The translations under genes and the position numbers were made by a program. A stretch of DNA of 64,000 nucleotides. Source: Leucobacter chromiireducens subsp. solipictus. Lineage in GTDB: Bacteria; Actinomycetota; Actinomycetes; Actinomycetales; Microbacteriaceae. This document shows, piece by piece, positions 52,844-55,144 of this stretch. Numbering within the stretch: the first letter of the stretch is position 1; each line of letters starts with the position of its first letter. The DNA lies in assembly GCF_016758195.1 (NCBI RefSeq), contig NZ_QYAC01000004.1, positions 1 through 64,000 on the forward strand, in the 5' to 3' direction. The notes beneath the pieces were generated by a model that saw only the letters and a program-made list of their open reading frames with translations, was not told the origin of the DNA and searched no databases.

Positions 52844-53470
52844 CTATGTGGTCGGGGCGAGCCCCTGGCGCGCCGCCGCGATGAACCGCGTGATCCGCTC
52901 CAGGTCCTTCTCGCCGGGGGCAGATTCGACGCCGCTTGACACGTCGACGCCGCCCGGACGCACCGCCGCGATCGCCTCGGCCACGTTCTCGGGCGAGAGG
53001 CCGCCCGCGAGGAGCCAGTCCGTGCCCAGCCGCGCCGGATCGAGCTGGCTCAGGTCCCAGGTGCTGCCCGAGCCGGGCTCGGCGCCGTCCACCAGGAGGC
53101 GTTCTTCGCCGTACGCGCCGGCGGTGAGCGCAGGATCGTCGGTGAGTGAGGTGGCGCGCCACACCCGCGGGATCAGTTCCTGCGCGGCCCGCACGTCGGC
53201 GGCGCGGTATCGGCCGTGGAGCTGCAGCACGTCGAAGCCGAGGTCGCGGGCCAGCGCGGCGGCCTCCGCCGCGGCCATGCGATTCACTACGAGCACCGTA
53301 TCGACGTCGGCGCGTGCGGAGCGGGCCGCGGCGAGCACCACGCGCGCCTGCTCGGGCGTCGCGTGGCGGGGGCTGCGCGGGCTCATGACCACGCCGATCG
53401 CGTCCGCCCCCGCGCGTACCGCGTGCCGCGCGGACTCGGGCGTGCGCAGTCCGCAGATCTTGACGTACAT
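52844..53470 (-). CDS. trpF: Phosphoribosylanthranilate isomerase
   Basis: TrpF converts phosphoribosylanthranilate to CdRP in tryptophan synthesis. The 208-residue TIM barrel begins MYVKICGLRTPESA with catalytic Cys near residue 6, followed by IGVVMSPRSPR and LQLHG. The catalytic Asp is in LLVDGAEPGSG, and the phosphate-binding segment is LLAGGLSPENV and GVDVSSGVESAPGEKD at the end. ATG 53470 has GAGGAGG upstream. Many actinobacteria lack trpF because PriA is bifunctional, so a separate TrpF is informative for this lineage. Confidence 0.93.
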   Translation of the reverse strand: MYVKICGLRTPESARHAVRAGADAIGVVMSPRSPRHATPEQARVVLAAARSARADVDTVLVVNRMAAAEAAALARDLGFDVLQLHGRYRAADVRAAQELIPRVWRATSLTDDPALTAGAYGEERLLVDGAEPGSGSTWDLSQLDPARLGTDWLLAGGLSPENVAEAIAAVRPGGVDVSSGVESAPGEKDLERITRFIAAARQGLAPTT

Positions 53471-53488
53471 GGGAGCCTCCTCGGTGAC

Positions 53489-53513
53489 GCTCCCAGCGTA
53501 CTGCGCTGGGAGC
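53489..53513 (-). terminator. Hairpin between sodA and trpF
   Basis: Ten-base perfect arms (53489-53498 and 53504-53513) around a 5-nt loop lie between these two leftward genes. No U-run follows. Confidence 0.45.
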
Positions 53514-53541
53514 CGCGGTGACCGCGGCCCCCAGCCTGGCG

Positions 53542-54171
53542 CTACTTCGCGGGCGCGATCAGCCCGGAGGTCTGGGCCTGCGCGGCAGTGAAGCGGCGCT
53601 GCACATCGGCCCAGTTGACCACGTTCCAGAACGCCTTCACGTAGTCGGCGCGCACGTTCTGGTAGTCGAGGTAGTAGGCGTGTTCCCACACGTCGAGCTG
53701 CAGCAGCGGGGTGACGCCGAGCGGCGCGTTGCCCTGCTGATCGAAGAGCTGGAACACGACCGGGCGCGCGCCCACCGAATCCCAGGCCAGCACCGACCAA
53801 CCGGATCCCTGGACCCCCAGAGCGGTGGCTTCGAAGTGGGCGCGGAACGCGTCGATCGACCCGAAGTTCGCGCCGAGCGCCTCCGCGAGATCGCCCTCGG
53901 GCTCGCCCCCGCCGTTCGGTGACATGTTCTCCCAGAACACGCTGTGGTTGATGTGGCCGCCCAGGTTGAAGGCGAGGTCCTTCTCGAGCTTGTTGACGTT
54001 GCGGAGGTCGCCGGACTCGCGGGCCTCGGCAAGCTGGGCCAGTGCGGTGTTTGCGCCCGTCACGTAAGCCTGGTGGTGCTTGGAGTGATGCAGTTCCATG
54101 ATGCGGCCGGAAATGTGCGGCGCGAGCGCGGCGTAGTCGTAGGGCAGGTCGGGGAGCGTGTATTCAGCCAT
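53542..54171 (-). CDS. sodA: Superoxide dismutase, Mn/Fe family
   Basis: SodA converts superoxide to oxygen and hydrogen peroxide. The 209-residue protein has the complete metal site: His28 (MELHHSKHH), His76 (HINHSVFW), Asp160 and His164 (DVWEHAYY). A Gln in the [18 protein letters not shown] region and the Gly-Gly-His-Ile segment favour manganese, but metal choice cannot be settled from the sequence. ATG 54171 has GAAAGGA upstream. It lies 89 bp downstream of fdxA on the same strand, after the SoxR-type promoter. Confidence 0.95.
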
Positions 54172-54260
54172 GACAGCATTCCTTTCGGTGGGCGCGGCGC
54201 GGGATCGCGGGGCGCGTGGTGTGGCGTTGCGGTGGTCTGGATCGGGGCGGGGCCCCGCGG

Positions 54261-54590
54261 CTAGTGAGCTTCGCTGAGCTGCGGCGGGAGTGCGGCGACG
54301 ATCGGGTGATCGAAGTCGTACGCCCCGGCCTTCGCGGCACCGCCGGGGGAGCCGATCTCATCGAAGAAGGCGACGTTGGCGGTGTAGTAGTCCGCCCACT
54401 CGCTCGGGAGGTCGTCCTCGTAGTAGATGGCCTCGACGGGGCAGACGGGTTCACAGGCGCCGCAGTCGACGCACTCGTCCGGGTGGATGTAGAGCATCCG
54501 GTCGCCCTCGTAGATACAGTCCACGGGGCACTCGTCGATGCAAGCGCGGTCTTTTAGGTCAACGCAGGGGAGCGCAATAACGTACGTCAT
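54261..54590 (-). CDS. fdxA: 7Fe ferredoxin FdxA
   Basis: A 109-residue low-potential electron carrier holding one [3Fe-4S] and one [4Fe-4S] cluster. The eight motif cysteines are at 9, 17, 21, 25, 40, 43, 46 and 50 ([17 protein letters not shown], then [12 protein letters not shown]), very like mycobacterial FdxA, which starts MTYVIA as here. ATG 54590 is chosen from this homology; the ribosome site is weak. Its promoter carries a SoxR box in a 19-bp spacer. It may supply electrons to oxidoreductases such as P450s or GltB-type enzymes; partners are not known. Confidence 0.93.
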
Positions 54591-54622
54591 CGGGACTCTG
54601 TGGGGGAAACGTGCATGACTCC

Positions 54623-54653
54623 ACCGTAGAACCTCAAGTACACTTGAGGTCAA
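54623..54653 (-). promoter_or_regulatory. SoxR-activated-type promoter of fdxA with perfect SoxR box
   Basis: On the minus strand -35 TTGACC (54653-54648) and -10 TACGGT (54628-54623) are separated by 19 bp, longer than the usual 17. The palindrome CCTCAAGTACACTTGAGG (54632-54649) fills the spacer. It matches the E. coli SoxR box at the soxS promoter except for the two central bases. An over-long spacer centred on the operator is the hallmark of MerR-family activated promoters. On the plus strand, TACACT (54639-54644) inside the same box is a possible soxR -10. Confidence 0.88.
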
Positions 54654-54667
54654 GCGGAAGGAGTCGC

Positions 54668-55144
54668 ATGTCAGACGCGGTCGAGCCGGTCCTCGGGGGC
54701 GCGCACGTGCCCGAGGAACTCCTCACGGTGGGGGAGATGAGCCGCCGCACGGGCGTCGCCGTGTCCGCGCTGCACTACTACGAGGAGCTGGGGCTCATCG
54801 CGTCCAGGCGCACCGCCGGCAACCAGCGCCGCTACCCCCGGTACATGCTGCGCCGGGTCGCGCTCATCTCGGTCGCCAAGCGGCTCGGCATCCCGCTCGC
54901 CGACGTGCAGGAGAGCTTTTCGGGGGTGCCGCTCGAAACCCCACCGAGCCACGAGGACTGGCAGCGCGCCTCCCGCAAGTGGAAGCGCACGCTCGAGCTG
55001 CGGCGCCAGGGGATCGAAGAGCTGGAGCGTGAGCTCACCGGCTGCATCGGCTGCGGCTGCCTGTCCATGAAGGCGTGCCGGCTCCTGAACCCCGACGACG
55101 AACTCGGAGACAGCGGATCCGGCGCGCGTCGCATTCGCGTGTGA
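54668..55144 (+). CDS. soxR: Redox-sensitive transcriptional activator SoxR
   Basis: SoxR is a MerR-family [2Fe-2S] sensor of superoxide and redox-active compounds. The 158-residue protein has a winged helix-turn-helix ([27 protein letters not shown], about 19-44), a dimerisation helix (about 95-124), and the cluster ligands Cys126, Cys129, Cys131 and Cys137 in the exact Cys-x2-Cys-x-Cys-x5-Cys arrangement. ATG 54668 has GGAAGGAG upstream. Its operator lies in the shared intergenic region with fdxA, so it likely controls itself and fdxA. Confidence 0.96.

Follow-up and report, generated by a model that had tools for sequence, protein, structure and literature searches.

A divergent soxR/fdxA-sodA locus in Leucobacter chromiireducens subsp. 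solipictus and a predicted direct SoxR promoter for superoxide-defence genes in Microbacteriaceae

A divergent soxR/fdxA-sodA locus is present in the window analysed here, a stretch of 64,000 nucleotides from the genome of Leucobacter chromiireducens subsp. solipictus (3.54 Mb, 11 contigs): soxR starts 18 bp beyond a SoxR box, on the strand opposite to that of fdxA and sodA (Table 1). We consider it likely, with a probability of roughly 0.82, that the locus is a divergent SoxR switch in which a redox-controlled promoter would directly drive fdxA and then sodA, and we read it as one-step control of superoxide defence by SoxR, without SoxS. The parts of this proposal that rest on sequence are the anatomy of the locus, the geometry and conservation of the promoter, the recurrence of the arrangement and the presence of second gene copies.

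Table 1. Features of the soxR/fdxA-sodA locus, with positions in the window.
Feature	Position	Strand	Remarks
SoxR box CCTCAAGTACACTTGAGG	54632..54649		0 mismatches to CCTCAAGNNNNCTTGAGG
fdxA promoter -35, TTGACC	54648..54653	-	overlaps the box by two bases, the last two of TTGACC and the first two of the box
fdxA promoter -10, TACGGT	54623..54628	-	19-bp spacer from TTGACC
Possible soxR -10, TACACT	54639..54644	+	predicted, within the box centre
soxR	54668..55144	+	158 aa, [2Fe-2S] sensor of the MerR family; GGAAGGAG precedes the ATG
fdxA	54261..54590	-	109-aa 7Fe-type ferredoxin, second genomic copy
fdxA-sodA gap	54172..54260	-	89 bp
sodA	53542..54171	-	209-aa Fe/Mn superoxide dismutase, second genomic copy

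The soxR product scored 178.2 bits against TIGR01950 (cutoff 116.9), which places it in the SoxR family, and it matched E. coli SoxR (PDB 2zhg) at E=2e-42 with the cluster cysteines aligned, including the CX2CXCX5C [2Fe-2S] motif. The closest named SoxR is that of Leucobacter sp. 7(1), which was 92% identical in the tblastn match and 96% identical across 142 compared columns of the alignment for the tree described below. The fdxA product is an actinobacterial FdxA of the 7Fe type (NF045480, 192 bits, cutoff 125) and matched the ferredoxin PDB 2v2k at E=3e-50, and the sodA product contains both Sod_Fe domains (PF00081 and PF02777) over cutoff, the NCBIfam models that it matched being under cutoff. 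The divergent gene at the locus is fdxA and not an AraC-type soxS. The first-pass annotation of this DNA was right about the identities and minus-strand placement of fdxA and sodA, and its account of the locus holds for these genes and their promoter, but it left out the divergent soxR and the second-copy status of both genes. On the soxR strand, a gene for an AlkZ-like DNA glycosylase (PF06224, 55192-56439, +) starts 47 bp after the soxR stop, and this DNA-repair gene is possibly read together with soxR. Just downstream of sodA and on its strand, a reading frame (52844-53800, -) contains a trpF-type domain (PF00697); its start is probably nearer 53470, because the upstream part of the open frame overlaps sodA.

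The fdxA promoter has the geometry of MerR-type promoters, an 18-bp box in an overlong spacer of 19-20 bp. The intergenic DNA between fdxA and soxR spans 77 bp. Reading of the sequence bore out the minus-strand TTGACC and TACGGT, 19 bp apart with the SoxR box in between, that had been annotated here, while the description of the box as a perfect 18-bp SoxR palindrome holds for its arms only: neither 7-bp arm departs from the SoxR consensus at any position, but the central two bases are asymmetric, leaving eight of nine pairs. In a visual comparison, 16 of the 18 letters are shared with the E. coli box given in PMC4411124. A genome search for further SoxR promoters, which the first-pass annotation had proposed, was run and returned none besides the fdxA promoter. 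No other two-arm box site at 0, 1 or 2 mismatches occurs in the whole genome, and sites with three mismatches in the arms can be regarded as noise, because 42 were found elsewhere in the genome vs. 123 for the reversed-pattern control; in the window alone, arms at up to three mismatches occur in 2 places vs. 2.0 expected. When the full promoter pattern was used at up to three mismatches, the fdxA promoter was the sole match in 3.54 Mb. Therefore, the predicted SoxR regulon of this genome is confined to this region, barring targets with strongly degenerate sites.

Searching 398 Microbacteriaceae genomes for SoxR over the family cutoff gave 93 loci in 88 genomes, the window included. All 93 were fetched, 12 of them with no more than 1.5 kb on each side, together with 27 named loci; 18 first-fetched loci, of which longer copies were kept, and five identical named copies were dropped before counting, leaving a final set of 115 SoxR loci (93 from the family and 22 named). 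The first divergent gene was fdxA in 27 of these, a flavin reductase gene (flvR) in 20, sodA in 11, an MFS exporter gene in 28 and no listed gene in 29, the corresponding numbers for the 93 family loci being 20, 14, 10, 25 and 24. Within the fetched stretches of the family loci (up to 3.3 kb from soxR), sodA was present at 29, fdxA at 23, flvR at 29 and any cassette gene at 46, while a rough estimate from two copies per 3.5 Mb puts the chance expectation for sodA near soxR at less than 1% of loci. In the genus group of the window, five of ten genomes have no SoxR over the cutoff; two of the four SoxR loci besides the window face an MFS gene and two face nothing listed, and elsewhere in two of these four genomes a cassette unit has a promoter of the SoxR type (L204, L244).

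The promoter is conserved together with these partners. At loci with fdxA first, TTGA abuts the box in 26 of 27 and TANNNT follows it by 3 bp in all 27, with both present in 26, and at loci with flvR, sodA or an MFS gene first, each element and the combination are found throughout (20/20, 11/11 and 28/28, respectively). The 29 loci without a listed partner serve as an internal control, because the script takes the best-scoring place near soxR; here, TTGA was seen in eight, TANNNT in one and both together in one. Across the 58 cassette loci, the 31-bp promoter is a conserved footprint, with 1.43 bits of information per base inside it vs. 0.21 in the flanks. In genome G280, where soxR and fdxA are about 2.4 kb apart and a box is found at both ends, the -35 and -10 are kept at the fdxA end. 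This comparison thus supports the earlier suggestion that SoxR acts directly on the promoter of fdxA, behind which sodA follows.

Two other groups of SoxR loci have a different appearance. Plantibacter-type SoxR proteins (L047, L049, L052-L054, L057 and L059) are close to the lineage of the window, and at their loci the box lies over soxR with no -35 and -10 facing away from it, the exporter and flvR promoters of SoxR type in these genomes being located elsewhere. At L091-L093, L095 and L096, only a diverged palindrome (ATCTCGACCATGGTCGAGAT and variants) is found near the start of soxR, and four of these five genomes contain flvR-sodA with an exact SoxR-type promoter elsewhere (L232-L235).

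An open scan of 396 family genomes with the pattern TTGACCTCAANNNNNNTTGAGGTNNTANNNT, made without reference to soxR, returned 52 exact sites in 42 genomes, and 0 matches for the reversed control. For every site, a queried gene counted as faced when its start lay no more than about 330 bp away (L274 and L275 repeat L250 and L251). An MFS gene is faced by 24 sites, flvR by 17, fdxA by six, sodA by two, fprA by one and none of these by two, so that 50 of the 52 exact promoters face a gene of this set. The fetched stretch had no SoxR match at 29 of the 52 sites, one of which (G208, L267) is about 4.2 kb from soxR, and the unlinked sites constitute an independent test, because the gene list had been derived from soxR-linked loci. 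The two exact sites that face no gene of the queried set (L274 in G210 and L275 in G098, the latter with an SDR-like frame on the other strand) are perhaps promoters orphaned by gene loss, the congener G160 having sodA at this place (L252). At L261 (G120), a SoxR-type promoter is followed by a stub matching about 30 FdxA residues and then by fprA, which resembles a decayed ferredoxin gene.

The genes of the divergent unit always follow the order fdxA-(fprA)-(flvR)-(sodA), and the units differ in which members are present. The fullest, fdxA-fprA-flvR-sodA, is found at L063, L064 and L134; fdxA-flvR-sodA occurs at L084 and L126-L128, fdxA-sodA at the window, L125 and L151, fdxA-flvR at L044, L056, L066 and nine loci of one genus group, and fdxA alone at L045, L048 and L060, with L089 and L135 cut by contig ends. 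The longer units L128 and L134 come from L. luti RF6 and L. komagatae. Units starting with flvR comprise flvR-sodA (L067, L070, L080, L083, L086, L088, L090 and L102-L106) and flvR alone (Arthrobacter and Glutamicibacter, L140-L142 and L144-L146), and sodA is alone at 11 loci (e.g., L027, L075, L107 and L136). At L058 and L062, the gene after flvR is PNPOx-like (PF01243 for L058) and may be another member of the cassette. Six loci have a cassette gene downstream of soxR, namely sodA (L045, L050 and L060), fprA (L048) or fdxA (L102 and L103). FprA at L063 was identified by its match to the solved FprA structure PDB 1lqt (E=1e-83), PF01613 identified the flavin reductases at L063 and L067, and the remaining cassette genes were identified by tblastn with cassette proteins as queries.

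Both target genes of the window have another copy in the same genome, fdxA at C1:474979-475305 (91% identical, upstream of dapC) and sodA at C6:99584-100198 (72% identical). A further fdxA copy is present in 20 of the 21 genomes with a divergent soxR-linked fdxA, although some copies in G280 are fragments, and the exception, G056, has only an 18-residue second match in place of a full second gene. By comparison, five of the six genomes with another soxR partner hold one fdxA copy, and the sixth, G376 from the genus group of the window, has a soxR facing an exporter gene and a separate fdxA-fprA-flvR unit whose SoxR-type promoter is one mismatch off (L204). Among 30 examined fdxA copies not beside soxR, including that of the window genome, 22 have dapC downstream. 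These sequence comparisons would fit a role of the second copies as inducible doubles of housekeeping proteins. In addition, L206 and L219 have an extra fdxA in reversed order, directly behind an fprA-like gene, and no SoxR-type promoter was seen within 130 bp before it.

We infer that fdxA and sodA are probably co-transcribed from the SoxR promoter. It is also possible, though unlikely, that SoxR controls fdxA only and that sodA has a promoter of its own and is simply located downstream. The 89-bp gap between the genes would allow for this, and the link of sodA to the SoxR unit is looser than that of fdxA, because sodA closes the divergent unit in only 10 of the 27 fdxA-first loci; of the 17 others, two end early at a contig boundary and another two carry sodA downstream of soxR. 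However, a consensus scan of 53400-54800, limited to spacers of 16-18 bp, called no promoter in the gap, and no terminator-like site was called there either, the folding being no better than that of shuffles (z -0.35). Further, many loci have sodA as the last gene of the unit, after fdxA, fprA or flvR, and in 11 of 115 loci sodA comes first at the SoxR promoter. Where sodA lies downstream of soxR in G058 (L237, exact) or unlinked to soxR in G160 (L252), it has its own SoxR-type promoter.

A second alternative assigns the locus to an export and detoxification regulon like that of Streptomyces, with FdxA supplying the electrons for the modification of redox-active metabolites by a monooxygenase. 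MFS exporters are indeed the commonest soxR partner in the family (25/93), and the SoxR targets described outside the enteric bacteria comprise transporters and modifying enzymes, according to PMC4146615. We nevertheless consider this reading improbable, since the sole promoter of this kind in the genome is that of fdxA, and relatives have sodA, flvR and fprA as their other partners.

The box might also serve soxR itself. In 59 of the 86 loci with a classified partner, box positions 8-9 read TA in the soxR sense, and in 0 of the 86 they do so in the target sense. This would place a TANNNT -10 of soxR inside the box and hence imply autorepression. Autorepression by way of a soxR -10 hidden in the box centre is therefore possible, as judged from the base pattern; a consensus scan requiring 9 of 12 matches and a spacer of 16-18 bp did not call a soxR promoter at the box. 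It is very improbable, however, that the box serves autoregulation only and that fdxA is constitutive. Only 18 bp separate the box from soxR, whose -10 it seems to contain, as such a reading would have it, but 26 of 27 loci retain the -35 and -10 toward fdxA, and fdxA also has SoxR-type promoters at places away from soxR (L153, exact, and L204) and downstream of soxR in G230 and G129 (L102 and L103), where it has its own one-mismatch promoter and flvR-sodA occupies the divergent one.

The promoter motif is not exclusive to SoxR, so far as sequence neighbourhoods tell. A class-wide motif scan gave a match in 64 of 394 genomes, and among 30 fetched Actinomycetes loci, 11 had SoxR, 16 had neither SoxR nor queried genes and three had other matches only; distant exporters may have been missed, because the exporter queries came from Microbacteriaceae. 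The motif alone is therefore no proof of SoxR, given the 16 loci without SoxR nearby, but it seems hardly credible that the motif of the window is the site of a different MerR-family regulator and has soxR beside it by accident, with soxR only 18 bp away, soxR paired with fdxA in 27 of 115 SoxR loci, and 0 of 20 MerR-family loci below the SoxR cutoff having fdxA, flvR or sodA within 3 kb.

On a SoxR tree (115 rows, built by a quick method from few columns, with SH-aLRT support only), the distribution of partners takes 19 changes of partner label vs. 67 when labels were shuffled. The sodA-first label changes four times, each time forced by well-supported branches. This suggests repeated recruitment of partners to the SoxR promoter, a reading kept at that strength because gains and losses are indistinguishable and sodA-first loci may come from the loss of preceding genes. 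A single specialised lineage of SoxR-linked ferredoxins was not seen in the FdxA tree (60 rows, eight label changes); one of the eight changes is forced by well-supported branches, which is too weak to tell one recruitment from many.

Taken together, we propose that SoxR encoded by soxR (54668) occupies the box between soxR and fdxA, and that the reduced protein would hold the overlong 19-bp fdxA promoter closed and probably limit expression of its own gene. Redox-cycling compounds would oxidise the [2Fe-2S] cluster of SoxR, the spacer would be distorted, and RNA polymerase could then use TTGACC and TACGGT, transcribing fdxA and subsequently sodA. Activation on oxidation is presumed by analogy: since characterised SoxR proteins activate in the oxidised form, redox cyclers would be expected to induce fdxA and sodA in a SoxR-dependent manner. 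The two products may be stress-dedicated second copies, SodA clearing superoxide, and FdxA, whose function at the locus we infer, carrying electrons for Fe-S upkeep and possibly for re-reduction of SoxR; in relatives with fuller units, the electrons of FdxA may come from NADPH via FprA. In this way, the locus would do in one step what enteric SoxR does via SoxS.

A subunit of the Rsx/Rnf/Nqr type (PF02508) was not found in this genome by a search that was positive in E. coli, and FdxA-FprA is a candidate SoxR reductase, such as the locus could offer for bacteria without Rsx. It is conceivable, albeit doubtful, that the redox loop is closed, with FprA-fed FdxA resetting SoxR and the first product thereby switching the promoter off, in replacement of the membrane Rsx complex. 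If this were true, the family would hold a self-resetting one-step superoxide circuit made from movable SoxR-promoter modules.

Characterised SoxR proteins bind promoters of this type whether reduced or oxidised, but only the oxidised form activates (PMC4411124, PMC4146615). According to PMC4146615, an oxidative-stress response in which SoxR works by way of SoxS may be confined to the enteric bacteria, and no putative non-enteric target is a typical gene of oxidative-stress detoxification or repair, the targets instead exporting or modifying small molecules; the terms "superoxide dismutase" and "ferredoxin" are absent from the text of that paper. Direct action of Arthrobacter SoxR on superoxide-defence targets is offered only as a guess in the accessible part of PMC4326396. 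Among the matches listed in literature searches for SoxR with fdxA, Microbacteriaceae or Leucobacter, as judged by titles and the beginnings of abstracts, there was no such locus.

In the actinobacterial family described here, by contrast, promoters of the SoxR type have genes for ferredoxin, ferredoxin reductase, flavin reductase and superoxide dismutase placed directly at them, an arrangement seen in several genera and in the form of movable modules. The window genome, with one such promoter found in the whole genome, would be a small natural system for asking what SoxR protects against. An exception to the non-enteric rule is reportedly Agrobacterium tumefaciens, whose SoxR is said to act on the superoxide dismutase gene sodBII; this resembles the window in that SoxR acts on a superoxide dismutase, but it belongs to a different phylum, and to our knowledge the Agrobacterium unit is without a ferredoxin, FprA or flavin reductase.

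The closest match in promoter form is soxR-mfsA of Stenotrophomonas maltophilia, which has the TTGACC -35, the 19-bp spacer with the box inside and the divergent soxR of the window, and whose SoxR represses its own gene (PMC4411124, passages available). Its target is an exporter, unlike that of the window, and rather resembles the 25 MFS loci of the family. Streptomyces coelicolor provides an actinobacterial SoxR that acts directly on few genes, as predicted for the window, its targets being a transporter, four redox enzymes and a sixth gene (PMC4146615, in part). In Pseudomonas aeruginosa, finR-fprA likewise has a superoxide-responsive regulator beside a ferredoxin-NADP reductase gene (PMC5302815, in part), but FinR is a LysR-type regulator, unlike the SoxR of the window. 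Finally, in E. coli, soxR and soxS are divergently transcribed (PMC11729352), as soxR and fdxA are in the window, the box is located between -35 and -10 with an unusual spacer (PMC4411124), again as in the window, and sodA and fpr are members of the SoxRS regulon (PMC8859910), as far as the excerpts of these sources go. In contrast to E. coli, the window locus has no soxS step, and the effector genes themselves stand at the predicted SoxR promoter.
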